DNA of 64,000 bases from a virus. Below are positions 1,109 to 26,603 of this stretch, one piece after another. The notes beneath the pieces were generated by a model, which was given only the letters and a program-made list of their open reading frames with translations, ran no database searches and was not told where the DNA came from. Each line of letters opens with the position of its first letter. Within the stretch, counting starts at the first letter, position 1. Location: the IMG/VR virus record IMGVR_UViG_3300035670_000045, positions 1 to 64,000 of that record; one strand, written 5' to 3'. The translations under genes were made by a program, and so were the position numbers.

Positions 1109-2077
1109 CTATCTATTGAATTTCCACGTGAGAAATGACTGTGCGTTCTGTACTGCGGTAACTACCTGAGACTCGTCCAAGTCACTGGGTTGCTCACCAT
1201 CGTAGTCCTGTGCGACCGCAACTTCCAGGTACTTCAGAAGCTCTGAACCTACAACCTCCGTACCCTTCTTTCCCGCCTCGTTTCTGTCCAGCATCAGCAC
1301 CACGGGGGCCCCGATGCGCTGGAGGATCCACAGCTGGTCTGCGGTCATCCTGCAGCCCAGGAGTGCCACCACGTTCTCGTACCCGCTGTCCCACACCCGC
1401 ATGCAGGCTTTGAACCCCTCGACAACGACCAGCGGCGTGTCCAGTGGGCCAAAGCACGCCGCGGGGTAGACGCGGTCTGCGTTCCACAGGATGGCGCCCT
1501 TTGGTACGTGCACCCCTGGAGGGATGCCGAACTCGGCGTACTCGTGGGTGTACACCTTGTACCTCGGCGTCTCGTCCACCACCGTTCGGCCGCTGATACC
1601 CACCAGGCACCCCGTGAGGTCTCTGAGCGGGAACGTGATACGGGCGTGCTTCTGATCGAAGCCGATCCCGAATCGCTGCAGCGTGCGCTCCGAGAAGTGG
1701 TCATCCTCGACGAGTGTCTCGGGGCACATGTCGAACTCCCCGAGGATGCGCTCCGGAATAGTGTCCTCCACCCGGACTACGGCGCCCGGGCGTAGGGGGT
1801 CGTACTTGGCGGGGTCGGAGCTTGACTTCCGCGCCTCGGTCAACTCCTCCTGGAACAAGTCGGGGTTGAGTCGAAGGCGTGTGATGAGCTGGTAGAGGTT
1901 CCCCTTCTCGTTGCAGGAGAAGCAGTTCCACACGCCCTTGGTCACAGAGAACGAGAACGGAGGCGTCTTGACTGGGCCCGTTCCTTGGTGGAACGGACAC
2001 CTGGTCAGTACGTTCTCCGACCCACACCCCTTCACGTCGCCGAGATGCTTGTTCGCGAACTCGAGGAGGCTGCTCAT
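1109..2077 (-). CDS. DNA primase (CHC2 zinc finger plus TOPRIM)
   Basis: This 322-residue protein makes RNA primers for DNA replication. The N-terminal CHC2-type zinc finger uses C27, H30, C52 and C55 (CPFH...CFSC). The TOPRIM core shows the conserved Glu in VVVEGFKA (E220) and an LMLDRNEAGKKG segment (D264). The second acidic position of the usual DxD is Asn here. It lacks the C-terminal helicase-interaction domain of cellular DnaG, as expected for a short phage primase. The ATG overlaps the stop of the DnaB-type helicase gene (ATGA), so the two are probably translationally coupled and work as a primosome. Confidence 0.92.
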   Translation of the reverse strand: MSSLLEFANKHLGDVKGCGSENVLTRCPFHQGTGPVKTPPFSFSVTKGVWNCFSCNEKGNLYQLITRLRLNPDLFQEELTEARKSSSDPAKYDPLRPGAVVRVEDTIPERILGEFDMCPETLVEDDHFSERTLQRFGIGFDQKHARITFPLRDLTGCLVGISGRTVVDETPRYKVYTHEYAEFGIPPGVHVPKGAILWNADRVYPAACFGPLDTPLVVVEGFKACMRVWDSGYENVVALLGCRMTADQLWILQRIGAPVVLMLDRNEAGKKGTEVVGSELLKYLEVAVAQDYDGEQPSDLDESQVVTAVQNAQSFLTWKFNR

Positions 2078-4533
2078 TTCCCGCCAACCAGTCCGAGTGC
2101 GATCTGCTGGATCTTGCTCGAGGCGCTGAGCTCCGTGGGCTTTCCGTCCTTGCCCTTCTCCTTCTTCTTCTTGGCCTTCTCGGACTCGTCATCGTCCGTG
2201 GCTTTCACGTTCTGCGCCTCCTTGTCGTCCAGTATCTTCTGGAACGAGAAGTCCGTGGAGGGCTCCGCGAAGATGCGGAATCCCGAGATGTTCCACTCTC
2301 GAGCTCCGGCCACTACGAGGGAGCACGTGTGCTTCCCAGTGTCGGGGTCGAGCACCTTGTCCTTGATCGTACGGATGGCGGCAGTGCAGTCCTGGGATAC
2401 GGCGTCCGACATCGCAATCTCGTCCATCTCCCCCTTCTCGTGCTTCGCGGCTTGCCGGTTCGCCTGGAGCGTACAGAACAGCGGGACTTTCGTGTCGAGG
2501 ATCATTTGCCTCGCCGCGCGTGACACGTTCTCGAGCCGTTCGTTCGTCTTCACGAGCTTCGAGTTCTCCGGGGTCATCAGGTACATGCCGTCGATGAACG
2601 CCACCTTCGGCTTGTACTTCTCCACCTTGCTGCGGAACCAGGAAATGGTGTCCCTGCCCGGCATGTCCTTGCCGGATAGCACCCAGAGGAGGTTGTCTTT
2701 CTCCCGCTTCCTCAGCATCTCGATGAAGTAGGCTATGTCCTTTCGGAACTTGGCCTCCATGATGGGATCGAGGCCACCGAGACGTACTGGCCCGTAGGGC
2801 ATCTCCGTGGCGATGCTCGCCAAGCGCTGGAACACGTTGTCTCGAGTCATCTCCTTCGTGTAGATGACCGTGGGCACCTGTTGCTCGAACACGCATGCGG
2901 ACGCCTGCTTCAGCAAGCACCACGTGTTGTGTGTGACGATGAAGTCGTCGGTGACGTAGAGGTGATCCGGAGCATCCACCGCGATGCACAGGCATTCCTC
3001 TTCCCCGTCCGGTTCGATGCTGATGATCTGCCGGTGCCGGGACTTCTCCGTGTCCTTCTCGGGCCGCAACTTGTCCAACCGTGAACGGATCGACACCGCA
3101 ACTGTACCGTCGAAGAAGCGGATGCTGGCGAGGTAGGATGGGTGACCCGCCAACTGCTTGCCCTTGTAGGTGTACACGGGGGCTTCCGTAACCCCAGTCG
3201 TAACGAGTGCACCCAACGAGCGGGCGATTTCCACCACCCCGTCGCGGAGCTGAACACTCGCGGAACTAAACTCGTACTTCAGACCGTCCGGATTCACGGT
3301 GCCGCCTGTATCGAGAAGTCCTCGGAGCAACTCCAGTCGGTCCTCGATGCTCGCCAGGAAATACTCACGAGGAATGAACTTCGTGAGCGCGCGGGTACCC
3401 AAAAGTCCGAGGCCTTCGATCGTGTGCTTGATGCCGGAGATGCGCATGGACGGGCAGTTCAGGGCCGTCGTGGATACGCGTGTGTGGCACCCAGGGGGGA
3501 GCCGGTCCTGTACCTTCTCGAAGAGGTCCATGTCCGGTTTGCTGATGGTGGTGTGTTTCCCCAAGTGACCATCGCCTAGGAGTGCGCCGAGCACATAGGG
3601 GTCGAGCGGGAGTTTTTCCCGCGGAGCGAAGTGCACGGGTTTCACGGTGGGAATGCTGTGGTTCGCACGGCCGCCTTCCCCTTTCAGTGTGCCGATCATC
3701 TCGCTCGTGATCTTCACGCTCCCAGGGCTCCCACGCCTTCGTTCGTTTCTAGTCTGCGTGAACCACAGGTGGTCCCCGCAGCATCGAGTAGACCCACCGT
3801 CGTTCATCGTGACCTTGAACATCGGGAGCTTACCCTGCGGGTAGACGCCTAGCACACGGGTAGGCATCCCGTTGGATCCGATGACGAGATCGCCCACCTT
3901 CACGTCTCCGTTTCTGATCCACCCAGAGGGCGTGAGCAGCTTCGCGGAGTTGGCGATCGCTTTCATGTTCTTCGGTCGCCCGTAGAGCACGATGTAGTCG
4001 TCGTCGTAGATGGGGCCGGTGAGTGCCCCGACGTCGTACCACGCCCAGTGACACACACCGGGGTCCAGCCCCTTCTTCCTCTTGTCGTAGATGTCGAGTG
4101 CAGTCGCAAACCCGTCGTGACCCGCCATGTCGTAGTTCTTGGTGTCACCGATGCGGTGGTACGCACCAAGAGCGTCGGAGATGCTGGACACCGCACCTCG
4201 AAGGTCTTTGCCATCCAGTTTCGGGATGGCCTCCGCAAGCGCCATGCGGAATAGAACACGGAGCCGGTTGCTCCTGACCTCGTGACAGAGGTGATCGACG
4301 GTGACGTGCTCGTCGACCTCGGTCCACGGAAGGTTAGGGAACACCTCCTTGGCGAGTGTTGGTCCAAGGACAGAGCCCGAGCTCTCCGCCCGCTGGTACA
4401 CCGACAGGATGCGCTCGTACATGGTCCGCGCCTCAGGGGAAGTGAAGTCCTCCGGGGCGAGTCCGAACTCCAGGACATCCCGCATCTTCCCTGTCTGGAT
4501 GATCTTGCAGACCAGCATCATCTCCGTGTTCAT
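2074..4533 (-). CDS. Replicative DNA helicase, DnaB type, with intein
   Basis: The 819-residue precursor contains a 345-residue intein (residues 192-536); the mature helicase is about 474 residues, normal for the family. It has an N-terminal helical domain followed by a RecA-like ATPase core. The P-loop reads GRPKNMKT after splicing, with Met where DnaB normally has Gly (GRPxxGKT). The Walker B strand is KVAFIDG. The C-terminal tail after about residue 780 is Lys/Asp/Glu-rich and probably disordered. It unwinds DNA at the fork with the downstream-encoded primase. The intein sits between the P-loop Lys and Thr, so the unspliced protein should not hydrolyse ATP. The assignment is firm; activity with the altered P-loop is an inference. 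Confidence 0.93.
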   Translation of the reverse strand: MNTEMMLVCKIIQTGKMRDVLEFGLAPEDFTSPEARTMYERILSVYQRAESSGSVLGPTLAKEVFPNLPWTEVDEHVTVDHLCHEVRSNRLRVLFRMALAEAIPKLDGKDLRGAVSSISDALGAYHRIGDTKNYDMAGHDGFATALDIYDKRKKGLDPGVCHWAWYDVGALTGPIYDDDYIVLYGRPKNMKAIANSAKLLTPSGWIRNGDVKVGDLVIGSNGMPTRVLGVYPQGKLPMFKVTMNDGGSTRCCGDHLWFTQTRNERRRGSPGSVKITSEMIGTLKGEGGRANHSIPTVKPVHFAPREKLPLDPYVLGALLGDGHLGKHTTISKPDMDLFEKVQDRLPPGCHTRVSTTALNCPSMRISGIKHTIEGLGLLGTRALTKFIPREYFLASIEDRLELLRGLLDTGGTVNPDGLKYEFSSASVQLRDGVVEIARSLGALVTTGVTEAPVYTYKGKQLAGHPSYLASIRFFDGTVAVSIRSRLDKLRPEKDTEKSRHRQIISIEPDGEEECLCIAVDAPDHLYVTDDFIVTHNTWCLLKQASACVFEQQVPTVIYTKEMTRDNVFQRLASIATEMPYGPVRLGGLDPIMEAKFRKDIAYFIEMLRKREKDNLLWVLSGKDMPGRDTISWFRSKVEKYKPKVAFIDGMYLMTPENSKLVKTNERLENVSRAARQMILDTKVPLFCTLQANRQAAKHEKGEMDEIAMSDAVSQDCTAAIRTIKDKVLDPDTGKHTCSLVVAGAREWNISGFRIFAEPSTDFSFQKILDDKEAQNVKATDDDESEKAKKKKEKGKDGKPTELSASSKIQQIALGLVGGK
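2926..3960 (-). other. Class 3 intein with LAGLIDADG endonuclease in the DnaB P-loop
   Basis: This is residues 192-536 of the helicase precursor. It begins with Ala192, not Cys or Ser, and ends VTHN before Thr537. It carries the class 3 WCT triad: Trp257 in block B (GDHLW), Cys516 at the block F position (CLCIAVD), and Thr534 in block G (VTHN). Class 3 inteins start splicing from the block F Cys instead of residue 1. Two LAGLIDADG-type motifs, LGALLGDG near 315-322 and LLRGLLDTGG near 402-411, indicate a homing endonuclease domain with its acidic residues kept. Removing the insert restores a continuous P-loop. Confidence 0.9.
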
Positions 4534-4536
4534 GTG

Positions 4537-4833
4537 CTACTTCCGCTCTTGCAAGTACTCGTCGAGGCCGATGGGTGTACGTTGATCGGGAGCTACCAGG
4601 CTTGGGTCCAGTGTAGGGCCTTGGTCCTGGACCAGTGTGAGGAAGTCCCGGGCCATGGCCGCACGGAACGCCTCGAGCTTCTCGTACGTGTCCGGTGACC
4701 ATGCTTGAAGTGTGACGGCGCCGTAGGTGGTCCCCGTTCGGGTACTGACGTATGACGCCGTTGCTTTCAGTGTTCGGCTGCGGAAGTCGATCTCCACGGT
4801 AGCCGGCTGCACCTCATCGAACTTCGTCTTCAT
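4537..4833 (-). CDS. Hypothetical 98-residue protein
   Basis: A small protein not recognised. It shows alternating hydrophobic residues in its first half (TVEIDFRSRTLKATASYV) compatible with a beta sheet, then a helical second half ending in a charged tail. Its ATG overlaps the stop of the upstream gene (ATGA), and the DnaB-type helicase starts 3 bases after its stop. It is therefore part of the tightly coupled replication operon, and a small accessory role in replication is possible but only by position. Confidence 0.75.
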   Translation of the reverse strand: MKTKFDEVQPATVEIDFRSRTLKATASYVSTRTGTTYGAVTLQAWSPDTYEKLEAFRAAMARDFLTLVQDQGPTLDPSLVAPDQRTPIGLDEYLQERK

Positions 4834-5255
4834 GGGACCTGCACGGGTGCGGGGCGTTGAATGACGTACTTGGTGGTGCGTGCCATCTCCGCGATGTCGG
4901 GTGCGAGCTTCTTCGTGGCAACGGCCATGTCCACGAGGGTGCGGTCGATCGTGTAGACCGTCTTCTCGGTCTTCTTCCCGCCGAGCTCGAGGAACATGTC
5001 CTCTCCCACGATGTCGAGGAGCTTCGTGGGGTCATACCCGAGCTGCGTCGACGTAATCTTGAGCATGCCCCCGTCATCTCCGGTCGTTCGGACGTACTTC
5101 TCGGCGGCTTCGAGCGCCGAGTTGAACTCGGGCATCAGGGCCTCCAGGTCGGCGAAGACGCGCGGGTTAGCCGCACGAAGGTTCGACAGCTTTTGGTAGG
5201 CGTCGACCATGGCTTGAAGTGGCTCGGGCAGGGTGCTCTCGGTGCTGTCGCTCAT
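4830..5255 (-). CDS. Hypothetical 141-residue protein
   Basis: The protein is not recognised. The N-terminal two thirds is acidic and helical, with a run resembling a coiled coil between about residues 15 and 60 (LQAMVDAYQKLSNLRAANPR region). The C-terminal part includes a predicted beta stretch KTVYTIDRTLVDMAVATKK. Start and stop both overlap the neighbours by ATGA, downstream of the uracil-glycosylase-like gene and upstream of the 98-residue gene. It is conserved in operon architecture only; no catalytic motif is visible. Confidence 0.78.
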   Translation of the reverse strand: MSDSTESTLPEPLQAMVDAYQKLSNLRAANPRVFADLEALMPEFNSALEAAEKYVRTTGDDGGMLKITSTQLGYDPTKLLDIVGEDMFLELGGKKTEKTVYTIDRTLVDMAVATKKLAPDIAEMARTTKYVIQRPAPVQVP

Positions 5256-6079
5256 ACGTCCAGATCCTCCGCGTCGTCGTACATGGGTTCAGGGGTTTCG
5301 ATCTTGTCGTCCCGGGTCAAGTCCAGGGAGTGGGTGTAGAGGTTGACCGCTTCCCGCACGTGCTCCTTGAGCTGCACAGCGGGGGAAGTTGGGCGGTGGT
5401 CCGCGGTGGCTTTCAGCGCAATCTCCGGCTCGTAGGTCGGGATCATGAGGTAGCTGACCGGCGCAGGCTCGGTGGGGTAGATCATCTGCCCTTGGAACTT
5501 GCGGCCCCATACTTGTCGCTTCTCGGTGACACGGGGCCGAATCCCCGCACCTGGGACGGTGAAGTGCGTGGGGTTACCCACGAGACTCGCGGTCGAAACC
5601 GCCTTCCCCATCAAGCTTTGGATCGCCACATCACCGCACGCGAGTACGATGACTGGATCGACCAGGTACACCTCCTCGAGCAGTCGATCGCTGCACGCTT
5701 TCCGCTGCTCGTGGCTGGGCGGGATGTCTCGGTACATCGGGACGAGGCCGCGCCGAGTGCTCCTCATCTTTTGCTGCCCTGTATCCTCGTCGATGATCGG
5801 GCTGCAGGACCGGCACGCCGTGGTGTACGTGACGTAGATGTGCTCCATCGCGTCGTACGCCCGGATGAGTGCGTAGAGAAACTCTTCCCCGTCGGTGGGG
5901 ATCCCCTCTTCTGTCTTCCACGTCGGACTTCGAAGGACGACAAGGATCTTCCCCTTTGCCCCCGTACCCGCAACCACGGGCTTGCCCTCCGCTGACCGAA
6001 TCTCGCCAAGACTACAGCGCGTGCAGTCCCCCCACTGTTCCCACATTCGGGCGAGGGACTTTCGACCGTCAACGGCCAT
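5252..6079 (-). CDS. Uracil-DNA glycosylase family 4-like protein, probably with Fe-S cluster
   Basis: The 275-residue protein has the layout of family 4/5 uracil-DNA glycosylases: an N-terminal CTRC pair (C19, C22), then a Cys-rich region CRSC near residue 110 and a later KACSDRLLEEV helix, followed by the VILACGDVAIQSLMG strand-loop typical of the fold. These Cys residues could hold a 4Fe-4S cluster. The uracil-binding motif that normally reads GEAPG is replaced by RSPTWKTEEG, and the C-terminal HPS-type motif is PTYEPE, so classic glycosylase activity is doubtful. An extra loop of about 30 residues follows the third Cys. Position in the replication operon suggests repair, or a structural or processivity role as in some viral glycosylase homologues; that part is inference. 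Confidence 0.75.
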   Translation of the reverse strand: MAVDGRKSLARMWEQWGDCTRCSLGEIRSAEGKPVVAGTGAKGKILVVLRSPTWKTEEGIPTDGEEFLYALIRAYDAMEHIYVTYTTACRSCSPIIDEDTGQQKMRSTRRGLVPMYRDIPPSHEQRKACSDRLLEEVYLVDPVIVLACGDVAIQSLMGKAVSTASLVGNPTHFTVPGAGIRPRVTEKRQVWGRKFQGQMIYPTEPAPVSYLMIPTYEPEIALKATADHRPTSPAVQLKEHVREAVNLYTHSLDLTRDDKIETPEPMYDDAEDLDV

Positions 6080-6082
6080 GTA

Positions 6083-6457
6083 CTACTTCTCCGGGGTTAG
6101 TGGGGCAGTGGTCGGGGGAGTCGTGGCATCCGCCGCTTGCTGCACATGTGCGATGACCTTCGTGTACGCGGCAAAGTCTTCGCTGGACAACGCACGCAAC
6201 GGCAGTACGAAGTCGGTGTATACCGACGTGCTTACTTTGGGGCTCCGCAGGAGGCCGTAGGGGTAGGCCACGGGAACTCGTTGGTGTACCGCACGCGTCC
6301 CAGAGCTGTCCACCACCACGCGGATGTCCACGAGGATGAGCCCGGAAATGTGCACATTTCCGACCACGGGTGCAGTTCGGTCGGTCGGGAGGATGAGGCA
6401 GTGCGGGCCAACACCTCGGACAGAGGCGATGCACCATTCCGCAAGTTCAGTGCTCAT
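6083..6457 (-). CDS. Hypothetical 124-residue protein
   Basis: The protein is not recognised. It is mostly beta-strand-like (HCLILP, HISGLILVDIRVVVDSSG, TSVYTDFVLPLRAL) and ends in a Thr/Pro-rich tail. The ATG overlaps the stop of the SF2 helicase gene (ATGA) and the glycosylase-like gene follows after 3 bases. It may be a small partner of one of these, but no motif supports a specific function. Confidence 0.75.
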   Translation of the reverse strand: MSTELAEWCIASVRGVGPHCLILPTDRTAPVVGNVHISGLILVDIRVVVDSSGTRAVHQRVPVAYPYGLLRSPKVSTSVYTDFVLPLRALSSEDFAAYTKVIAHVQQAADATTPPTTAPLTPEK

Positions 6458-8166
6458 TGGAACTCAGCCCATACGCTTTCTTTGGCTGGGACTCGGGTGA
6501 AGTACTTCACGGGGCCACCGTCCTCTACCTTCCGGTCTCGAAGGTAGCTGCGGAGCTTCTTGCACATGCCACGGACGATCCCGATGTTGTCCTCAAGGAA
6601 CATCGCGACGGGCGGACGCTTTCCTGCGGATGAGCGCAGCGCTCGCCCAAGGATCTGGTAGAGGCCCCCATCCTGAGCGATAGGGTTCAGCACGAGGATG
6701 CTGTCGAGCGACCGCTTGTTGAGCGCCTCTTTCCCGTACCGCATGATGCCGAAGATGACTTTTCGGGTGGCCAGCATTTGCATGCGAGCGGCCAGGGGGA
6801 CATCTGCGATTAGTAGGCCCGCCCGACCGGCCATGTTCCGGGCTATGATCCCCTTGAGGAAGTCTACCTGCCGTTTCTCGTACGCACGCTCAATGGCGAG
6901 GTACGACTCGTGGGCCGCAAACTCGAGCTCCACCTGGGCTAGCGAGAACTGCACTTCTTTTCTCCGCTCAGGTGAGACGGTTTGCAGTAACTGGAACAGC
7001 TTCCCCCGGTTCTTCTTCTGGTGAATGATGCGCCGGGGCGACATCATGCAGGGGGGTGTGGTCAGGTTGAGCTCTTGCGGGGTTGGCCTCGGGATGTCGG
7101 AGAACAGAGTAGTTTCGCCGCTGTACATCCCGTACAGATTGAGGAGCTCCACTTTTGAATGGGACAGCACCAAGATCTCTCGGCCTGCAGCCTCCGCATC
7201 TTTGATCTGCTTCATGGCCAGCTCGAGGCGAGCCTTCTTACGCCCAAGTGCGGCACATAGTAGCCCGTAGTGCAGCTCTTTGGCGGAGTCGATGACCTCC
7301 TTCATCTCTTCCGTGTCGGACAAGTTCAAGGAGACTCCGGTCTCGAGGAACACCACACGGGGCTCGAGCTCGGTCTTCAAGTCCTTGTACAGGATCGGCC
7401 CGAGGAACGACGTGTAGAGCCGCGTTGCGCCGTCGGCCCTCTCTGGGGTGGCCGTCAGCCCGTACCGCCTCCCGGGGAACAACCCGGCGGCGCGGATGTA
7501 CGTGTCCGCTCCGAGGTGGTGCGCCTCCTCGAAGATGACGGTGGAGAACTTGGTCAGAACGTCCGGTGGGAGCTCGTCGGCATACGCGGCCAACGTGGCG
7601 TACGTGGTCAAGACCAGGTTCTTGCTCCACGCGTCCTGCTGCTTGCCGCGGACCACGCCCACCCCGCCGGGGACCTCGAGCCAGCGTTCGATCTCACCCA
7701 CCCACTGACCGAGTAGCTGCGTGTTGTCCACCACGATCAGCGTAGGCCCGCCAATTCGGACGGCTGCCTCCAGCGCAATGATCGTCTTGCCTTTTCCGCA
7801 GCTCAGTTGGAGGATGCCCCCCTCCGACTCGACCAGACGGCTGACCGACTCCTTCTGGTAGCTGAGGTGTGGGTACATGGCGTCGAGTTGGATTTTCGAC
7901 GTGATGCCCGTTACGGCGTACGTCTTTGGGCGCACGTCATAGATCGGGAACATCTCGCGGAAGTCCTCCAAGTTGAAGAATCTACGTGGGACAATGAGGT
8001 GGTCGCTTGTCTCCTTCCACGCGAACACGTAGGTCTCGACCCCCTTGCCACGCTTCAGGGGTACGGTGAGTGCTCGGCGCACACTCTCGACGTTCACCTT
8101 GGACTTCGGCAGCCAAAGGGCGGAGGAGTAGTACCCCACGTCGGGGTTACGGCGAACTACGTGCAT
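6454..8166 (-). CDS. Superfamily 2 DNA helicase (UvsW/XPB-like)
   Basis: The product of 570 residues is an ATP-dependent helicase or annealing motor. Motif I is SCGKGKT (122-128), motif II is FEEAHH (E213-E214-A215-H216, a DEAH variant), motif III is LTATPER (237-243), and motif VI is QILGRALRSS near the C-terminus. The region of about 100 residues before motif I resembles the N-terminal part of UvsW-type recombination helicases. I chose ATG 8166 because AAAGGA lies six bases upstream; the same frame extends much further with shadow-like composition. T4 UvsW rescues stalled forks and drives recombination-dependent replication; the same role here is inferred. Confidence 0.88.
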   Translation of the reverse strand: MHVVRRNPDVGYYSSALWLPKSKVNVESVRRALTVPLKRGKGVETYVFAWKETSDHLIVPRRFFNLEDFREMFPIYDVRPKTYAVTGITSKIQLDAMYPHLSYQKESVSRLVESEGGILQLSCGKGKTIIALEAAVRIGGPTLIVVDNTQLLGQWVGEIERWLEVPGGVGVVRGKQQDAWSKNLVLTTYATLAAYADELPPDVLTKFSTVIFEEAHHLGADTYIRAAGLFPGRRYGLTATPERADGATRLYTSFLGPILYKDLKTELEPRVVFLETGVSLNLSDTEEMKEVIDSAKELHYGLLCAALGRKKARLELAMKQIKDAEAAGREILVLSHSKVELLNLYGMYSGETTLFSDIPRPTPQELNLTTPPCMMSPRRIIHQKKNRGKLFQLLQTVSPERRKEVQFSLAQVELEFAAHESYLAIERAYEKRQVDFLKGIIARNMAGRAGLLIADVPLAARMQMLATRKVIFGIMRYGKEALNKRSLDSILVLNPIAQDGGLYQILGRALRSSAGKRPPVAMFLEDNIGIVRGMCKKLRSYLRDRKVEDGGPVKYFTRVPAKESVWAEFQ

Positions 8167-8202
8167 GGTGCATCCTTTACTAGCTAAACAATGGGAGGGA
8201 TC

Positions 8203-8222
8203 GGCCGCCCCGTGGGGCGGCC
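8203..8222 (-). terminator. GC-rich hairpin between two minus-strand genes
   Basis: A perfect 9-bp inverted repeat (GGCCGCCCC, two-base loop, GGGGCGGCC) lies 5 bases beyond the stop of the minus-strand gene at 8228 and 36 bases before the helicase ATG. No U-tract follows on the minus strand, so it may attenuate transcription or stabilise the 3' end and not act as a strong intrinsic terminator. Confidence 0.5.
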
Positions 8223-8227
8223 ATCCG

Positions 8228-8767
8228 TCAGTGTCGGTCGTCGAACCAGGGGGTGGTGTCGATGATGTGCGCGATGCCGAGCGCCGCACCTTTGAAGGCG
8301 GCTCGAGCTGCCGCGCGTAGCATGAGGGTGTACCAGGGCTCCCCTCCTCCTCGCGGTTCCGGGGTGGATAGGAACGGAGGTACCGGGTAGTTCGCGAAGT
8401 TGCCGGGGGATGCAGAGGTCGGCACGTACACCGTGGCGGGTTGGGACTGTACCGGGCGGGTGAACTCGGCTGAACGGTACGGCTGCGTCTCGGGTCTTCG
8501 TGGCGGGTACAGCGTGGGTGTAGTGGTTGGCTGGGTTCGTAGGGGCACGTGCTCGGGTGCTCGGGGTAGAAGTAACTTCGCGGTCTCGGTGGCTTGGCAA
8601 CGTGCACCACATGCCCGGTAGAACGGGCACTCCGGTCGACGTCGCTCGTTGGTGGTGGGGTCGAGGTACGCGGGATCCAGTCCCCCTCGACACTCTAGGT
8701 CCTGTGTGCTCCACTGCTCGGAGCCGAAACACCCCGGAGTCAGTTTTTCCAGTGCGGGTATGCCCAT
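8228..8767 (-). CDS. Hypothetical Cys-containing, Pro-rich protein
   Basis: The protein has 179 residues. The start was chosen at ATG 8767 because GGAGG sits seven bases upstream; the longer open frame upstream reads antisense through another gene. The N-terminal 60 residues contain a Cys cluster (CFGSEQW, CRGG, CPFYRACGARCQ) that may bind a metal. The middle is Pro/Thr-rich and probably disordered. The last 30 residues form an Ala-rich helix. It heads the minus-strand replication operon. I do not recognise it. Confidence 0.7.
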   Translation of the reverse strand: MGIPALEKLTPGCFGSEQWSTQDLECRGGLDPAYLDPTTNERRRPECPFYRACGARCQATETAKLLLPRAPEHVPLRTQPTTTPTLYPPRRPETQPYRSAEFTRPVQSQPATVYVPTSASPGNFANYPVPPFLSTPEPRGGGEPWYTLMLRAAARAAFKGAALGIAHIIDTTPWFDDRH

Positions 8768-17606: not shown

Positions 17607-20600
17607 GTGGCATACTCCGACCCCAACTCCGCCTTCGATCACCTGCACACGGAGACCTCGGAGGCCCTCGCCTCCCACTTCCCTATCGTCGGGAAGAAGT
17701 ACACGGTGCGGCTCGCCGGAACGACGCTCGGTCAACGGCTTGACCCCAACGACATCCGCTCGCAGTACCAGAAGCGAGTGGACGGTGGGTCGTACTCCGT
17801 CCCGCTTTACGGGAACCTGCAGCTCGTGGAGAACGAGACTGGAAAGGTCATGGAAGAGCGCAAGCTCCATCTCCTCGACCTTCCACAGATGACGAATCGG
17901 TTTTCGTACATCGTTGGCGGCAAGGAGTACCAGGTAGCCAACCAGTGGCAGTCCCGCGCGGGTGCGTACACGAAGCGCGGACAGAACGGCGAGCTCTCCA
18001 CCAGGTTCAACGTGCTGAATCGCAACCAGTTCGACCTGACCTTCCACCCAGAGACCAGCAACGTGGAGATGGAGGTCAAGTCTGCGCGCATCCCCGTGTA
18101 CCCGCTCCTCAAGGCACTGGGCGCGTCGGACTCGGAAATCGAAAAGCGTGTGGGCAAGGTGGCGTTCGAGTCCATGCGAGACGCCCGCGGTGTCGGGTCG
18201 GCACTGCGCCAGTTCTACAAGACGACCACGCGGAAGGACGCGGAGTCAGACGAGGCAGCGCACGCACACTTCGTGGACCAGATGAAAGAGTCCGTGATGG
18301 ACCCGCAGGTCACGAAGCACACACTCGGCGCGGAGATGTCTCATGTCACCGCGGACACACTCCTTCGTAGCATCGAGAAGCTGCAGAAGGTACACGGTGG
18401 AGCTCCCGAGGATGACAAGGACTCCCTCGTATTCAAGGGCCTGCGTTCCATCGGGGACTTCGCTGGTGACAAGATCCGAGCCCACGGTAAGGCCGTGCGG
18501 GAGCGCGTCGGTCGGCAACTCACTTCGGGGACTACACTTCGCCGCATCATCCCGCCCGGTCTGTTCAACGCGCCGCTGCGTGAGACATTCACGGACAACG
18601 CGGCGTCGGAGCTCGCAGCACAGATCAACCCGGTCGAGATGATCGGGAAGAACTTCCAGACAACGGTGCTCGGCCCAGGTGGCATCACCAGTGAGGACAA
18701 GATCCTCGACTCGGTGAAGCTCATCAACCGGTCGCACTTGGGCTTCCAAGACACGGTCGTCACCCCGGAATCCGGGCGTACAGGGGTAAACCTACGTCTC
18801 CCTCTGGGGCTTCAGAAGGTGGGCAAGGACGCCAAAATCTCGGTGTACAATCTGCGCACGGGTGCGCCCGAGATGGTGGACACCGGAACGTTCCTGACTT
18901 CCCACGTGGTCCTTCCGGACCAGGTGTCGTGGAAGAACGGCACACCGGTCCCGGTCGCTGCGGACGTCAAGGTGGCGGGCAAGGACAACGAGATTGAGGT
19001 GATGCCTTTCCACAAGGCGCACTACGTGATGCGGCACCCGAGCCAGGTGTTCTCCACGACCACCAACCTGATCCCGTTCCTGGCCAACGTGTCGGGTAAC
19101 CGGGCCTCGATGGCGACTCGTCACATCGAGCAGGCGATATCGCTCACGGACCGTGAGCCCCCGCTCGTGCAAGCAGCTTCGGGGCATCCGAATCCTCACC
19201 TTCGGACGTTCCACGACGTCATTGGGCGGCAGAGCGCACACATCTCGCCGTTCAACGGGAAAGTCGTGGCGGTGAAGCCGGACGGCATCCACATCCAGAC
19301 AGAGGCGGGGCTGAAGGAGGTGCAGATCTACAACCACTTCCCACTCAACGACGCGAAGTCGACCCTGCACTCCACCCCGGTGGTGAAGGTCGGGGACGAG
19401 GTGACGAAGGGCCAGCTCCTTGCGGACACGAACTACACGAAGAACGGCACGCTGGCTCTTGGGAAGAATCTGCGGGTGGCCTACCTGCCCTTCCGGGGCC
19501 TGAACTTCGAAGATGGGGTGGTCGTGTCCGAGACGGCAGCGAAGAAGCTGACCTCGAACCACATGTACAAGGACCAGCTCACGGTCACTCCGGAGACGAT
19601 TCTCGACAAGAAGAAGTTCCTGTACCACGTCGGCGGAGGGTACCGAAAAGACCAGGTCGAGAACATCGGCGATGACGGTGTTGTGCGGGTGGGCAGCAAG
19701 CTCCGGCCCGGAGACCCCATGATCCTCGCGATGTCTCCGTACGACCTCAAGTCCCGAATGGATGCGAGGTCGATCAATCGTGCGCTCACGGGGGCGCACA
19801 ACGACAAGTCCCTGCGGTGGCATGGGGACGTCGAGGGTGAGGTCGTAAGCGTGCACCGGTCGAAGGACGGTGTGCACGTGCATGTGAAGACCACGGAAGC
19901 GGCGAGGGTCGGGGACAAGCTGTCGTCCGCGAACGCAAACAAGGGCGTCATCTCGATGATCGTCCCTGACCACATGATGCCTCACACTCCAGACGGATCG
20001 CCCATCGAAGTAGCGCTCAACCCTTGCTATGACGACAAGACCGAGTTTTTGACCCGACGCGGTTGGGTCCGAGGCCCGGAGCTGGTCAACGAGGACATCT
20101 TTGCCACGATCAACCCGATGACGCTCCGGCTCGAGTACCAGCGTCCGGTGCAGGGCGTGTACCGCTGGAGGTACACGGGAAAGATGTACCGGCTGAAGAA
20201 CGCGCAGCTCGATTTGTGTGTGACCCCCAACCACAAGAACTTCGTCGCGAAGCGGGTACCTGGGGCACTGGGTCCTATCGACTTGGGATCCGTGCCGCCG
20301 GGCACTTTCCAGTTGGAGGAGGCGCAGGCAGGCTTTGGTCAGCCGCGCCGGCACCTGAAGGCTGCCGCGTGGGAAGGCACCCCCGTACATACGGTGCACG
20401 TACCCGCCGGGTCTCAGTGCGTCACAGGACCGAAGAACCAGCCACTGAATTTGTCGGAGAGTGACTACGCCGAGCTCATGGGGTGGTACCTGTCGGAGGG
20501 GTACTGCCAAAAGACCAAGTCGGGTGGGTACGTCGTGGCCATCTCTCAGTCGCGTACGGCCAACTCGGAGAAGTACGAGCGCATCGTAGCCCTCCTGACA

Positions 20601-23600
20601 CGCATCGGGCTTTCCCCCATCTTGGGCGACGAAGACATCCGAGTTCACCACAAGGGCCTCTTCGAGCTTTTGAAGCCGCTTGGGTATCAGCACGAGCGAT
20701 TCATCCCGGAGAGTGTTCAGTCCCTCCCTGCGGCTTCCCTGCGCGTGTTCCTCGACGCTTACCTCATGGGGGATGGGAGCCGACGGGATCGGCCGTCGGA
20801 CGGGCACCACGGCACGATGCGGTTTAGCACGACGAGTCGAGCCCTGGCGGACGGGATCCAGCTCGTTGCATTCAAGCTTGGCAGGGTCGTCAACGTTCAT
20901 CCGCCAAAGGTGCGCATGCGCAGCCAGATGGAGCGCCCGTGCTACGAGCTCTCGATTGGGGCGCGTCACCGTGCCCCTTGGGCGAACTGGTCGGAAGAGA
21001 CGAAGAAGAACCAGACGGAAGAGTGGGTGGACTACGACGGCACGGTGTACTGCACGGAGGTGCCGAACGGCGTCCTCGTGGTACGACGCAACGGCAAGGT
21101 AGTGATTTCGGGCAACAGCGGCGTGCCCGGTAGGATGAACCCCTCCCAGTTGTTGGAGACAGCGGCGTCAAAGATCGCGCTCAAGACGGGCAAGACGTTC
21201 ATCGTTCCGAACTTCAAGCACGGATACGATGCTGTGGCGCACGTACAGTCGGAGCTCGAGAAGCACGGGCTGACGGACACGGAGGAGCTCATCGACCCGG
21301 TTAGCAAGCAGAGCCTCGGGAAGGTCATGGTGGGTCACCAGCACATCCTCAAGCTGGTACACCAGTCGGACAAGAAAATCGGAGTGGCTTCTGGCATGAC
21401 GTTGCCAGGTGTACCGTCCGACGAGAAGTACGACGCGAACCTGCAGCCGAAGGGCGGCTCCCGTCTTGGGTCCCTCGGCACGTACGCGCTCTTGGCGCAT
21501 GGTGCGGTACACAACCTTCGTGAGTTCCAGACGTTCAAGGGGGAAGGAGAGGACCGTGAGGCTGACGGGTCCAAGCGTTGGCCGTCCCAGCACGTCGACG
21601 TGTGGAACGCCATTCAAACGGGGGCCCCGCTTCCTCTGCCCAAGAGCTCGTTTGCTTTCCACAAGTTCACGGAGATGCTCAAGGGGTCAGGCATCAACGT
21701 CGAGAAGAAGGGGCACGAGATCATCGCCAGCCCGCTGACCGATGCGCATGTCCTCGAGCTCGCTGGGAACCGAGTGCTCCCCAAGCCTGGTGACATCGTC
21801 AACGCCAAGATCGACAAGGCGACCGGAGAGCTCCAGCCTCGACCTGGGGGACTGTTCGATGTCAAGCTCACGGGCGGGCACAACGGGAAGAAGTGGTCGC
21901 GCATCGAGCTTCACGAGCCGATGCCAAACCCCATCTTCGAGGGGCCGATTCGCGCGTTGACCGGACTGAGCGCGGAGCACTTCCACGGCATCATCTCCGG
22001 CACCCACGGGGTGTCTGCCTCCGGCAAAGTGACCCCGGTCAAAGACGCGGTTCACCATGGGGGGCACGCCATCGCTCACCTTCTGAAGGGGATCGACGTC
22101 AAGAAGGAGCTGGAGGCTACCACCCAGGCGTTGAACAACGCCCCGCCCTCGAAGGTCGATGGCATCCTCAAGAAGGCCAAGTACCTCCGCGCACTCGATG
22201 GTCTTGGGCTCAACCCCCACGACGCGTACATCATGAAGAACGTGGCGGTCATCCCGCCCGCGTTCCGGCCCGTGTCCGTGCTGGGGGACGGCAAGAACAT
22301 CAACGTGGGTGACGTGAATCGCATCTACCGAGATGTCGGCATCCTGAACGAGCGCATGGGTCACTCTGCGCTGGACCAAGCGCCGGAGGTGAAGGCTGCC
22401 GTACGAAAGGACCTGTACGAGAGCATCCGGCAGATCAGTGGCGACGGCATCCCTTACGCAGATGCAAAGCACAAGGGGTTGCTGCATTTGCTGGCGGGGC
22501 CCGCGCCGAAGCAGGGGTTCATCCAAAAGCGACTGACCCAGAAACGGCAAGACTTGTCGCTCACCGCTGTCATCACACCGGAGCCCGCGCTCCATCTCGA
22601 TCAAGTCGGGCTCCCGAGGGACAAGGCGCTCGAGCTCTTCCGGCCGTTCGTGGTGCAGAAGCTTCAAGAGATGGGCTACGCCAAGCACCCCCTCGAGGCA
22701 CGAGCTGTACTGGCAAAGGCGGGGCCGGAGTCGTTCGCGGCACTGGAGAAGGTTGTTGCCGACCGCCCCGTACTCATCAAGCGTGACCCCGCACTCCACA
22801 AGTACTCCGTGCAGGGATTCGATGTGAAGCTCGTCGAGGGCAACACTATGAAGCTTCACCCGCTAGTTTGCGGGGGATTCACCGCTGACTTCGACGGGGA
22901 TAGTGCCCTAGGTGAGGTTATCGTTGTAGCTGCTGGGGGTGATGCGTGTCAGGGTGATCCGAAAGGGTTCCATATGCCGCACACGGGAGATGTCGCTTCA
23001 GCACGGGTGGTCGACCTCGCTGACTTTCCGAGGATCGAGGAGACCGCGCGCACCAATTCTCGCGGGGTGGTGGAGTACGACGTCCCTTCTGGGACGTACG
23101 TGCCCGCGTTCCACGAGGGGCGCATGCAGATGATGGCCGTGTCGGAGTACTCGGTGCACCCCAACTGTCGAGAGTGGAAAGTCACGACCCACCGCGGTCG
23201 GGAGCTACTCTGTTCCGAGAACCACAGCTTGGCTGTATTGGACCCGGACACGCTTGAAGTTGTGAAGAAGTCTCCTCGTGACGCGGAAGGCCTCGGCATC
23301 CCTGTGCTGCGAGACCTGGGGGAAACTACTGCGACCTGGGCCCTTCCTGGTGTCGCAGCAACGCACCACCGGGCGAAGCCCATGGTTGGGGAGGTCCCGC
23401 TCGACCGGTCCGTCGGGTGGTTCCTTGGGGCCACACTCGGAGACGGCTGGGTGTCCGACCTGTCACGTGGCCCGACGCAACAAGGGCGCTTCACGGGAAA
23501 GCTCAAGGAGCGTTCGGAGTGCAAGTCCCGGCAAGTGTGCCTGTCGTACGGAAAGGGCGAGGCCAGCGCGGCTGTTGCCGCCCACTGGGCCAAGGTTGCG

Positions 23601-26600
23601 GAGTCGCTAGTGAGTGACTCCATGTGCGGAGTGGCACACCTGCCTCACGAGTTCGAGGGCAAGCCCTGCACTTCGTACCGACTCACGCTGGCGAACACCA
23701 GCTTGGGTCTGTGGGTCGAGGAATTGATCGGTACGGGTGCAGAGCGAAAGCACTTGCCCGCCGACTTCCTCACGTACCCGCTGGAGTGCCGTCGGGGTCT
23801 CTTCTGCGGGCTGATGGATACGGACGGGACGGTGAACTGGGTGACTGCGAAGTCGAAGTCGACACCCCAGTTCCAGTGCTCGATCACGACGATCAGTCAG
23901 GAGCTCGCGGATGGTCTGCAGCTGTTGGCGGGGTCGGTAGGGGTGGTTTCCAACCGTACCGTGTACACCAACCGGGGCAAGCCTGTTTACCTGGTCAGCT
24001 TCTCCACACGCTCCATGCAGGATGCTGGGTGGGTGGAGTTGATCCATACGGGCAAACAAGCCAACCTGTCGAAGTTGTGGGCGACTGCTGGGGTCATGCA
24101 TGGGCGTGGGGACGTGGTCCCGATGCCGCCACGTGCACTTGAGGAGCTGCTCGAGCACCTGCGGGCGCTTGGTGCGGCTAAGAAAGACAAGGACGATTCC
24201 GAGAAGTCGGCGTTTGCGACCTACGCTGCACTGAAACGCACCACTCAGTACGTCACCCGTACCATGGTGGAAAAGCTCCAAGGACAGCTGCAGGGTCGAG
24301 AGCTGAGCGGCTACTTGTCGAAGTGGCTCCAGCTGGCCACTAACGCATCGTTGGGTTGGGACATCGTCACGTCGGCTGCAGCCACGGGCGAGACAAAGAC
24401 CATGTACGACCTCACGGTCCCCGATGCGTGGACCTTCACGATGGCGAATGGCGCGGTTGTATGGGACACAATGCGCGCTTATGTGCCGATCTCCAAGGAG
24501 GCGGTGCAGGAAGCACACCGCATGAAGCCCTCTCAGAACCTGTTCGCAGAGAGCACGGGCCAGATCATGTACGTACCCTCGCTCGACTCAGCGCTTGGGC
24601 TCTACAAGATGTCCCTGCCTGGGGCGAAGACCGACCACAAGTTCACTTCCACCCAAGACATCCTGGCAGCCGCCAAGTCTGGGAAGATGGGCCCTCGTGA
24701 CATCGTACAGTTGAACGGGAAGCCCACCACTGCAGCTCGTGTGTTGCTCGCTGACGCGTTGCCGGAAGCGATGCGGCCCAAGATGTTGCATGGGGTGGAC
24801 GATCACATCAATGGGAGCCGGCTCCGCGATTTGTACACGGAGATCGGAAAGTCGCATAAGGCCGAGTTCGCCAAATCCGCCGACGCCTTGAAAGACATCG
24901 GGAACCATGCCGCGTTCGGTACTGTCCCCATCCCCAACTCCAAGGATTACCTGACCATCGGCGCTCACTCCCTTTCCCTGGCGGACATGAAGACGCTGGC
25001 GGAGGTGCGTGACCCCGTGGTCAACGCCGCACATCACGACGTTGCCGAGATCCGGAAGAAGTTCGGGAAGACCCCGGATGCGGACGCGAAAGTCGTGGCG
25101 AGGTACAAGGAGGCGGAGAAGCAACTTCGCGCCCACATCGCTGCCATCCCACACGAGAAGGGCAACAACCTCCACACGATGTACCTGGCGGGGGTCAAGC
25201 CGGGGTGGGACCAGTACAAGCAGCTGATCTTTGGCCCGATGCTGCTCGAGGACTCCACGGGAAAGACCATCACCACGCCGGTGACGCGCAGCTACTCGGA
25301 AGGACTCGATGTCGCGGGGTACTGGACCCAGATGCACGGCGCACGTAAGGGTTCCGTGCAGAAGGTGCAGGAGGTCAGCGAGCCCGGCGCACTCACCAAG
25401 CTCATCATGCAGTCCACCCTTAACACGGTGGTGGCTGCGCCCGACTGCGGCACCTCCAGGGGCGTGTTGCTGCCGGTGAGTGGCGCGGCTTCGGACGTGC
25501 ACGACCGGGTACTTGCACGTGACTTCTCTCACGGAGGGCTGCATGTCCCGGCGGGGACTATCCTCGACCCCAGGGTCGTCGACAAGATCCGTGCGGCCAG
25601 CCCTACGGCACAGGTGCTCGTGCGCTCCCCGTTGAGGTGCGAGCACGGCAACGGGGTATGCCAGAAGTGCGCTGGGCTGTCGCCCAACGGGCACCATCAC
25701 CCGTTGGGGACAAACATCGGGGTCATCGCGTCCCAGACGGTGGGCGAGCGTGCGGTGCAGCTGATGCTCAAGAGCTTCCACTCCGGAGGTACCGCCTCCA
25801 TCGGCGGAGGGCCCACGCTCATCGGCGGGTTCAAGCGGCTCGAGCAGCTCACTACCCTGCCGGAGAAGGTACCCAACCAGGCCACGTTGGCGATGCGCTC
25901 GGGGACGATCAGCAAGATCGAGCACAAGCCTACGGGTGTGGACGTGTACGTCGACGGGCACAAGCACTTCGTGGGCAAGGACCCGTCCGGACAGGAGCTC
26001 CACAAGCCCCACGCTGGCTCCCAGTGGACGGGCCTGGCCGTGGGCCAGACCGTGAAGGCCGGGGATCACCTGTCGGATCCGACGCGTAGCATCGTGAACC
26101 CCCGGGACCTCTACAAGGCCACGGGCAGTATCGAGGTCGTACAGAATCACCTGGCGGACGAGATGCACAAGCTGTACGCCAGTGAGAACGTGAAGCGTCG
26201 ACACTTGGAGACCGTGGTGCGTGGCCTCACCAGCGTCACGAAGGTGGTGGACCCCGGCGGTGCCAGCGGGATCCTACGCGGTGAGTTCAAGCCGTTGGCG
26301 TCCGTGCACAGCCTCAACAAGGAGCTGCAGAAGGCGGGACGTCCACTCATCGAGCACACGCCTACCCTCCGCGGAGTGGAGACCGTCCCGCACGACATGC
26401 AGGACGATTGGATCGCCAAGCTGCAGCACCGACGCATCATCGACACCCTGACGGGCGCGGCTGCGCTAGGATCGAAGGCGAACATCCATGGCACCCACCC
26501 GATCACGGGGTTGGCGTACGGTGCACGCTTCGGATTGACGAAGCGGCACTCGGCGCAGCCCGGGCTTCACGACCACAAGGACGTACCGGAGCACTACTAC

Positions 26601-26603
26601 TGA
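17607..26603 (+). CDS. Fused beta-beta' RNA polymerase with two inteins
   Basis: A 2998-residue precursor, about 2112 residues after removal of two inteins. The first part is a beta subunit: NPVEMIG...LGPGGI (about 342-360), SGNRASMATRH (about 496-505, cf. ANRALM), LPFRGLNFEDGVVVSE (about 627-642), GDKLSSANANKGVIS (about 769-783) and, across intein 1, LNP/SGVPGRMNPSQ. The second part is beta': TADFDGD (1759-1765), the Mg-binding catalytic loop interrupted by intein 2, then bridge helix YWTQMHGARKGSVQ (about 2572), zinc site CEHGNGVCQKC (about 2680) and GVIASQTVGERAVQ with FHSGG (about 2705-2730). It is one open frame with no internal stop. No alpha, omega or sigma gene is seen in the window. 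It starts with GTG, probably leaderless. It should transcribe phage genes; promoter specificity and assembly partners are unknown. Confidence 0.95.
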   Translation: MAYSDPNSAFDHLHTETSEALASHFPIVGKKYTVRLAGTTLGQRLDPNDIRSQYQKRVDGGSYSVPLYGNLQLVENETGKVMEERKLHLLDLPQMTNRFSYIVGGKEYQVANQWQSRAGAYTKRGQNGELSTRFNVLNRNQFDLTFHPETSNVEMEVKSARIPVYPLLKALGASDSEIEKRVGKVAFESMRDARGVGSALRQFYKTTTRKDAESDEAAHAHFVDQMKESVMDPQVTKHTLGAEMSHVTADTLLRSIEKLQKVHGGAPEDDKDSLVFKGLRSIGDFAGDKIRAHGKAVRERVGRQLTSGTTLRRIIPPGLFNAPLRETFTDNAASELAAQINPVEMIGKNFQTTVLGPGGITSEDKILDSVKLINRSHLGFQDTVVTPESGRTGVNLRLPLGLQKVGKDAKISVYNLRTGAPEMVDTGTFLTSHVVLPDQVSWKNGTPVPVAADVKVAGKDNEIEVMPFHKAHYVMRHPSQVFSTTTNLIPFLANVSGNRASMATRHIEQAISLTDREPPLVQAASGHPNPHLRTFHDVIGRQSAHISPFNGKVVAVKPDGIHIQTEAGLKEVQIYNHFPLNDAKSTLHSTPVVKVGDEVTKGQLLADTNYTKNGTLALGKNLRVAYLPFRGLNFEDGVVVSETAAKKLTSNHMYKDQLTVTPETILDKKKFLYHVGGGYRKDQVENIGDDGVVRVGSKLRPGDPMILAMSPYDLKSRMDARSINRALTGAHNDKSLRWHGDVEGEVVSVHRSKDGVHVHVKTTEAARVGDKLSSANANKGVISMIVPDHMMPHTPDGSPIEVALNPCYDDKTEFLTRRGWVRGPELVNEDIFATINPMTLRLEYQRPVQGVYRWRYTGKMYRLKNAQLDLCVTPNHKNFVAKRVPGALGPIDLGSVPPGTFQLEEAQAGFGQPRRHLKAAAWEGTPVHTVHVPAGSQCVTGPKNQPLNLSESDYAELMGWYLSEGYCQKTKSGGYVVAISQSRTANSEKYERIVALLTRIGLSPILGDEDIRVHHKGLFELLKPLGYQHERFIPESVQSLPAASLRVFLDAYLMGDGSRRDRPSDGHHGTMRFSTTSRALADGIQLVAFKLGRVVNVHPPKVRMRSQMERPCYELSIGARHRAPWANWSEETKKNQTEEWVDYDGTVYCTEVPNGVLVVRRNGKVVISGNSGVPGRMNPSQLLETAASKIALKTGKTFIVPNFKHGYDAVAHVQSELEKHGLTDTEELIDPVSKQSLGKVMVGHQHILKLVHQSDKKIGVASGMTLPGVPSDEKYDANLQPKGGSRLGSLGTYALLAHGAVHNLREFQTFKGEGEDREADGSKRWPSQHVDVWNAIQTGAPLPLPKSSFAFHKFTEMLKGSGINVEKKGHEIIASPLTDAHVLELAGNRVLPKPGDIVNAKIDKATGELQPRPGGLFDVKLTGGHNGKKWSRIELHEPMPNPIFEGPIRALTGLSAEHFHGIISGTHGVSASGKVTPVKDAVHHGGHAIAHLLKGIDVKKELEATTQALNNAPPSKVDGILKKAKYLRALDGLGLNPHDAYIMKNVAVIPPAFRPVSVLGDGKNINVGDVNRIYRDVGILNERMGHSALDQAPEVKAAVRKDLYESIRQISGDGIPYADAKHKGLLHLLAGPAPKQGFIQKRLTQKRQDLSLTAVITPEPALHLDQVGLPRDKALELFRPFVVQKLQEMGYAKHPLEARAVLAKAGPESFAALEKVVADRPVLIKRDPALHKYSVQGFDVKLVEGNTMKLHPLVCGGFTADFDGDSALGEVIVVAAGGDACQGDPKGFHMPHTGDVASARVVDLADFPRIEETARTNSRGVVEYDVPSGTYVPAFHEGRMQMMAVSEYSVHPNCREWKVTTHRGRELLCSENHSLAVLDPDTLEVVKKSPRDAEGLGIPVLRDLGETTATWALPGVAATHHRAKPMVGEVPLDRSVGWFLGATLGDGWVSDLSRGPTQQGRFTGKLKERSECKSRQVCLSYGKGEASAAVAAHWAKVAESLVSDSMCGVAHLPHEFEGKPCTSYRLTLANTSLGLWVEELIGTGAERKHLPADFLTYPLECRRGLFCGLMDTDGTVNWVTAKSKSTPQFQCSITTISQELADGLQLLAGSVGVVSNRTVYTNRGKPVYLVSFSTRSMQDAGWVELIHTGKQANLSKLWATAGVMHGRGDVVPMPPRALEELLEHLRALGAAKKDKDDSEKSAFATYAALKRTTQYVTRTMVEKLQGQLQGRELSGYLSKWLQLATNASLGWDIVTSAAATGETKTMYDLTVPDAWTFTMANGAVVWDTMRAYVPISKEAVQEAHRMKPSQNLFAESTGQIMYVPSLDSALGLYKMSLPGAKTDHKFTSTQDILAAAKSGKMGPRDIVQLNGKPTTAARVLLADALPEAMRPKMLHGVDDHINGSRLRDLYTEIGKSHKAEFAKSADALKDIGNHAAFGTVPIPNSKDYLTIGAHSLSLADMKTLAEVRDPVVNAAHHDVAEIRKKFGKTPDADAKVVARYKEAEKQLRAHIAAIPHEKGNNLHTMYLAGVKPGWDQYKQLIFGPMLLEDSTGKTITTPVTRSYSEGLDVAGYWTQMHGARKGSVQKVQEVSEPGALTKLIMQSTLNTVVAAPDCGTSRGVLLPVSGAASDVHDRVLARDFSHGGLHVPAGTILDPRVVDKIRAASPTAQVLVRSPLRCEHGNGVCQKCAGLSPNGHHHPLGTNIGVIASQTVGERAVQLMLKSFHSGGTASIGGGPTLIGGFKRLEQLTTLPEKVPNQATLAMRSGTISKIEHKPTGVDVYVDGHKHFVGKDPSGQELHKPHAGSQWTGLAVGQTVKAGDHLSDPTRSIVNPRDLYKATGSIEVVQNHLADEMHKLYASENVKRRHLETVVRGLTSVTKVVDPGGASGILRGEFKPLASVHSLNKELQKAGRPLIEHTPTLRGVETVPHDMQDDWIAKLQHRRIIDTLTGAAALGSKANIHGTHPITGLAYGARFGLTKRHSAQPGLHDHKDVPEHYY
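20025..21116 (+). other. Intein 1 of RNA polymerase (LAGLIDADG), in the beta GVPSRMN block
   Basis: Residues 807-1170 of the precursor, 364 residues. It begins with Cys807 (CYDDKTEF) and ends SGN before Ser1171; the penultimate residue is Gly instead of His. Block B contains TPNH. LAGLIDADG-like motifs are LMGWYLSEG near 957 and LDAYLMGDGS near 1049. The flanking host sequence joins as VALNP/SGVPGRMN, matching the nearly invariant beta motif LNPxGVPSRMN, so the borders are well supported. Confidence 0.9.
22902..24467 (+). other. Intein 2 of RNA polymerase (LAGLIDADG), in the beta' catalytic loop
   Basis: Residues 1766-2287, 522 residues. It is inserted right after TADFDGD, whose three Asp residues bind the catalytic Mg, and before TMRAYVPIS; the spliced product DFDGDTM matches the beta' family. 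It starts with Ser1766 and ends VVWD before Thr2288, so both terminal residues are non-standard (Asp for Asn, Trp for His). Block B contains SENH; block F reads MYDLTVPDAWTF. Endonuclease motifs are LGATLGDGW near 1940 and GLMDTDGT near 2069, both with acidic residues. It is longer than the other two inteins. Confidence 0.88.

Follow-up and report, generated by a model that had tools for sequence, protein, structure and literature searches.

Introduction

Class 3 inteins are defined by a non-nucleophilic residue at position 1, by a Trp at B:12, a Cys at F:4 and a Thr at G:5, and by a Ser or Thr at +1 (PMC5222942, PMC5050341, PMC7664689). Such inteins are already known at the P-loop of DnaB, in the DnaB proteins of M. 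smegmatis (Msm) and M. leprae (Mle) (site b, PMC6195587) and in many phages. The mini-inteins Msm DnaBi1 and Mle DnaB occupy the same P-loop position, before Ser/Thr, in the same family of host proteins as the phage intein described here (PMC6195587). They share with it Ala1, the WCT triad and the HN end, and the splicing domains align. Both lack an endonuclease domain, whereas that of the phage intein is present but mutated in its active site, and their block B reads DxxH where that of the phage intein reads CxxH.

The sole deviation of the phage intein is the loss of one endonuclease residue, and there are precedents for degenerate intein endonucleases. In the P. horikoshii VMA (PhoVMA) intein, too, the splicing domain is accompanied by a LAGLIDADG domain that is folded but devoid of catalytic Asp (PMC8966425); this intein, however, is archaeal, does not belong to class 3 and has lost the Asp in both motifs rather than in one. 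Without its block C and block E aspartates the PhoVMA intein is inactive, and cutting was regained once the active sites had been grafted back (PMC8966425). In a class 3 intein, the endonuclease active-site aspartates have been mutated (D123A, D219A) to block the endonuclease (PMC3196547).

An intein inside the Walker A motif of a phage helicase

The window, a stretch of 64,000 nucleotides, is part of a 126,743-base virus record. It contains a helicase gene (4533-2074, minus strand) that forms a single open reading frame of 819 codons with no internal stop and is organized as follows:

2074 to 4533, minus strand: DnaB-like replicative helicase precursor, 819 amino acids, interrupted by an intein (open frame; Pfam DnaB_C; PHROG 19)
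3961 to 4533, minus strand: N-extein, amino acids 1-191, its last residues (GRPKNMK) forming the first part of Walker A (alignment with intein-free relatives)
2926 to 3960, minus strand: class 3 intein, 345 amino acids, Ala1-Asn345 (residue alignment; AlphaFold model; PDB fold matches to PI-SceI and class 3 DnaB inteins)
2074 to 2925, minus strand: C-extein, amino acids 537-819, starting TWCLL (alignment with intein-free relatives)

The host protein is a member of the DnaB-like helicases, with a DnaB_C domain that contains Walker A and Walker B motifs. The Pfam DnaB_C match is above cut-off (E 6.7e-9), and PHROG 19, the DnaB-like replicative helicases, matches both the C-extein (E 2.5e-21) and the N-extein (E 7.5e-8). 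FIDGMYLM is conserved between the helicase and its relatives. Its Walker A motif, GRPKNMK/T (the slash marks the insertion point here and below), is without the usual Gly before the Lys, and the same is seen in relatives (GRPKSMKS). A primase-like gene (2077-1109) with a CHC2 zinc finger and a Toprim domain follows the helicase.

We gathered helicase relatives from IMG/VR by the C-extein alone, or via records sharing another gene, so that the search for empty sites was independent of the intein. All 24 distinct related phage helicases (∼35-52% identical to the C-extein) are intein-free at exactly the same point and read [YF]GRPKxxK[ST]W uninterrupted, compared with YGRPKNMK-intein-TW in the window. 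The insertion therefore lies between the Walker A Lys and Ser/Thr, that is between Lys191 and Thr537 of the precursor (YGRPKNMK/TW), and thus Thr+1 (codon 2925-2923), as aligned with the intein-free relatives, would have to serve both as splicing nucleophile and as Walker A Thr. The computed intein extends from Ala1 (3960-3958) to Asn345 (2928-2926), residues 192-536 of the precursor. A sequence-only reading of this DNA had assigned positions 2926-3960 to the insert and put it between the P-loop Lys and Thr; these coordinates are exact, the frame is one 819-amino acid ORF without stops, and the uninterrupted loops of the 24 intein-free relatives confirm the position. When bacterial and archaeal genome contigs were searched with the helicase C-extein alignment, no relative was found.

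The splicing domain carries the class 3 signature

We next give the residues of the splicing domain, counted in an alignment of the window intein with 88 related sequences (n = 89):

3763 to 3780, minus strand: block B, C61-G-D-H64-L-W66, with His B:10 and Trp B:12 of the WCT triad (alignment with solved class 3 DnaB inteins)
2986 to 2988, minus strand: block F Cys325 (Cys F:4), putative initiating nucleophile (aligned to the block F Cys of Msm DnaBi1)
2926 to 2934, minus strand: block G Thr343-His344-Asn345, that is Thr G:5, the penultimate His and the cyclizing Asn (alignment)

Residue 1 of the intein is Ala, not Cys, Ser or Thr, as it is in 77 of the 89 sequences. Block B of the window intein reads CCGDHLW, in which His-64 is invariant (89/89) and Trp-66 nearly so (86/89). 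Cys325 stands in ECLCIAVDAPDHLYV, at a position occupied by Cys in 87 sequences, and block G is similarly conserved (Thr-343 87/89, His-344 88/89, Asn-345 87/89); the corresponding residues of the precursor are Ala192, W257, C516, T534, H535, N536 and Thr537. Among the few exceptions at these signature positions are rows that are truncated or plainly of class 1. Nearly all of the nearest intein relatives carry WCT; the trees we built included class 3-type sequences only. The family specializes in the P-loop, because position -1 is Lys in 81/89 and position +1 is Thr or Ser in 88/89 sequences.

Among PDB sequences, the splicing domain matches gp41-1 and the class 3 DnaB inteins 6bs8, 6rix and 6riy best. 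In the phmmer alignment with the solved structure of Msm DnaBi1 (6bs8), Trp-66 falls on the Trp of that intein and the C-terminal CIAVDAPDHLYVTDD-FIVTHN on its CVEVDNPEHLYLAGPGMVPTHN; the Trp and the Cys of the window intein are thus found inside blocks B and F, respectively. An AlphaFold model of the intein, run without rows from the annotated phage collection, has a mean pLDDT of 96.1 and a pTM of 0.93 and shows the HINT fold. Its best fold match in the PDB is PI-SceI (E 1e-19, TMq 0.71-0.78). The class 3 DnaB inteins 6riy, 6rix and 6bs8 match the splicing domain and stand lower in the fold list (Foldseek E ∼4e-6 to 3e-7, TMt up to 0.82). Taken together, the aligned residues and the model make the class 3 assignment well supported, with splicing itself predicted.

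The endonuclease domain is folded but lacks one catalytic Asp

The endonuclease domain comprises two LAGLIDADG helices:

3175 to 3624, minus strand: LAGLIDADG homing endonuclease domain, approximately intein residues 113-262 (weak Pfam, phmmer and fold matches)
3562 to 3603, minus strand: block C, first LAGLIDADG helix, DPYVLGALLGDGHL, with catalytic Asp130 (3573-3571, codon GAT)
3289 to 3330, minus strand: block E, second LAGLIDADG helix, LLRGLLDTGGTVNP, with Gly219 (3306-3304, codon GGC) in place of the catalytic Asp

Pfam matches to the domain remain below cut-off (Hom_end, E 5.6e-4; LAGLIDADG_3, E 0.0075), and phmmer aligns it to PI-SceI with E ∼2e-5. In the model it adopts the endonuclease fold, with the two LAGLIDADG helices at residues 121-130 and 205-219. 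The last Asp of the LAGLIDADG motif is one of two metal-binding acids. In block C (LGALLGDG) the Asp130 position is Asp in 89/89 sequences. Block E reads LLRGLLDTGG, and position 219 is Asp in 86 sequences, Asn in two and Gly in the window intein only (n = 89), so that an acidic catalytic residue ends the first helix and a Gly the second. The sequence-only reading, whose class 3 call is borne out by the alignment with 88 relatives and solved class 3 inteins and by the fold, had also taken the endonuclease domain to be intact; here it was mistaken, as Gly replaces one member of the catalytic Asp pair.

A leave-one-out comparison covered 38 columns with conservation of 95% or more among the relatives; the window intein deviates at two of them, Gly219 and a mild replacement of Gly251 by Ala. 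Because the domain is otherwise well preserved, the missing Asp suggests either a recent loss of the endonuclease or a one-base assembly error. GGC differs from the Asp codon GAC by one transition and is seen in a single metagenomic assembly. A second copy of the helicase with which to check the Gly codon was not found, and the L226 record (35.9 kb, ∼95% identical to the window in DNA) contains no helicase match.

Cleavage is predicted to be lost: for the effect of a missing block E Asp we rely on the work on the PhoVMA intein (PMC8966425), on the class 3 active-site mutants (PMC3196547) and on general knowledge of LAGLIDADG enzymes, and our search of the open literature for PI-SceI Asp218/Asp326 mutants returned nothing relevant. 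With only one Asp gone, some residual activity or nicking could persist. The single-base nature of the change would also fit a class 3 intein that is still fully mobile and whose homing endonuclease is active, Gly219 being either tolerated or an assembly error. Such an intein would account for the conservation of the remaining endonuclease (Asp130, Lys194, full length) and its confident fold, and the intein-free alleles of the relatives indicate that targets are not exhausted. We nevertheless regard it as improbable: none of the other aligned sequences has Gly at 219 (n = 89), the family relies on an acidic residue here for catalysis, and the relatives' sites share only 23-30 of 48 bases with that of the window, leaving no obvious target among those found. 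Barring a one-base assembly error, the locus probably holds an intein that is able to splice but whose homing enzyme was recently inactivated.

Proposed mechanism and possible regulation

Our analysis very probably defines a class 3 intein that interrupts the P-loop of a DnaB-like phage helicase, is expected to self-splice and has an endonuclease predicted not to cut. We infer the splicing mechanism from class 3 biochemistry (PMC5222942, PMC7664689, PMC6195587). His64 and Thr343 would activate Cys325 of block F, whose attack on the Lys(-1)-Ala1 bond would give the block F branched intermediate, and the N-extein would then be transferred to Thr+1. Cyclization of Asn345, aided by His344, would release the intein, and an ester-to-amide shift would join Lys to Thr and rebuild the Walker A loop. 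Before excision, the helicase would be unable to bind ATP properly. Thr+1 doubles as the Mg-coordinating residue of Walker A, a role stated for Ser+1 in Msm DnaBi1 (PMC6195587). Because the intein sits in the P-loop, and by the argument published for DnaBi1 (PMC6195587), the precursor should be without ATPase activity; that the ATPase activity of the helicase depends on intein excision is a sound inference. The Gly219 endonuclease retains its fold and its first catalytic Asp but is predicted not to cut DNA, and the intein is now probably carried passively.

Rather than being a passenger, the intein might splice slowly or conditionally and act as a brake on the helicase, which would be produced as a precursor and activated only in certain conditions, for example by a redox switch that uses Cys60/Cys61 and Cys325. 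In Msm DnaBi1, which occupies the same P-loop site, a disulfide linking Cys48 to the catalytic Cys118 inhibits the intein reversibly (PMC6195587), and Cys60-Cys61 of the window intein lie in block B near His64. The CC pair is, however, common in the family (Cys60 nearly invariant, Cys61 in 48/89) and no special feature of the window intein, and every splicing residue is intact, which makes a brake quite unlikely. A regulatory gate has been proposed as a role for mycobacterial DnaBi1. It is very doubtful that the phage intein was retained after the death of its endonuclease because it had become useful, for instance by gating phage DNA replication according to redox state or timing. A class 2-like intein, with direct attack of Thr+1 on the N-terminal junction, has next to no likelihood: Ala1 alone is compatible with both classes, but we rejected the class 2 mechanism because of the full WCT triad, which together with the block F Cys is common to nearly all close relatives, and KlbA genes are the only ones from which class 2 has been reported (PMC3196547).

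The predicted self-splicing class 3 intein adds one more phage helicase to the P-loop proteins occupied by inteins of this class, and leaves current understanding unchanged. It provides a clean example of an early step of the homing cycle, with the splicing part intact, an endonuclease that is folded but one catalytic acid short, and relatives in which intein-free alleles are common.

Relatives and probable origin of the helicase intein

We located matches to the window intein in 553 phage records. The closest by identity is an IMG/VR phage DnaB intein (L083), 47-48% identical over its full length, which carries the full WCT triad and interrupts the P-loop IAARPSLGK/T. It keeps the second LAGLIDADG Asp (LLDTDG), and its host is an ordinary DnaB, not a helicase of the GRPKxxK clade. 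A related phage has, at locus L246 (142-2946, minus strand), a class 3 intein that is 44% identical and lies at Lys/Thr of the P-loop CGKGK/TVV in a ResIII/DEAD-type helicase. Block E of this intein reads LLVTDG, with the first Asp changed and the catalytic Asp kept, and the record that contains it also encodes a relative (L163) of the window's helicase. Its host gene looks like a homologue of the window's neighboring ResIII-type helicase (6454-8610), not of the DnaB-like gene; the neighboring helicase is intein-free at the matching point (CGKGKTII).

Inteins of the same architecture at the same P-loop site are also found in the large terminase subunit TerL (L003), Vibrio phage 1.244.A, Enterococcus phage 156 and Escherichia phage TL-2011a. 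These class 3 inteins of terminase large subunits and helicases are ∼33-38% identical to the window intein, have other exteins and keep the active-site Asp. Beyond the terminase, inteins at Lys followed by Ser/Thr occur in further P-loop ATPases and helicases. A quick tree modestly groups the window intein with that of L246 (support 0.907), but in a maximum-likelihood tree built without L246 the nearest kin of the window branch are poorly resolved. Movement of inteins between P-loop genes is plausible from these comparisons. The helicase intein probably arrived by horizontal transfer, because 24 of 24 helicase relatives have none and the nearest inteins lie at the same Lys/Ser or Lys/Thr of other P-loop proteins. 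At 3797-6283 in two further loci (L120 and L122), class 3-type intein matches are split over two frames by a stop or frameshift and represent a decayed copy or a split gene.

Other inteins of the virus record

A second gene of the window is interrupted as well:

17607 to 26603, plus strand: fused beta-beta' multi-subunit-type RNA polymerase, 2998 amino acids in one frame (Rpb2_6, Rpb1_1, Rpb1_2, Rpb1_5)

The fused beta-beta' RNA polymerase is common to a clade of phages whose records reach ∼195 kb, and the gene of the window carries two inteins. One (22902-24467, plus strand, 522 amino acids) is located directly after the catalytic DFDGD. It starts with Ser1 and ends AVVWD/TM, a terminal Asp and a penultimate Trp replacing His-Asn, and its second LAGLIDADG motif, GLMDTDG, is intact. 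The L226 contig, ∼95-96% identical in the flanking DNA, has a precise empty site, FTADFDGD/TMRAYVP (FTADFDGDTMRAYVP), in which only the 522-amino acid insert is missing. For the helicase intein, we have no evidence of recent movement as strong as this presence/absence difference.

The other polymerase intein (20025-21116, plus strand, 364 amino acids) is of class 1 type (Cys1 ... SGN/S) and is inserted at VALNP/SGVPGRMN. It is also present in L226 (NGKVVISGNSGVPGRMN), and some other relatives are uninterrupted at this point (VALNPSGVPGRMN). A fourth apparent intein of the record (L223, at ∼83.4-84 kb of G000:C1 and outside the window) interrupts the P-loop of a SNF2-type helicase, GLGSGK/T, and runs from Cys1 to YLHN/T.
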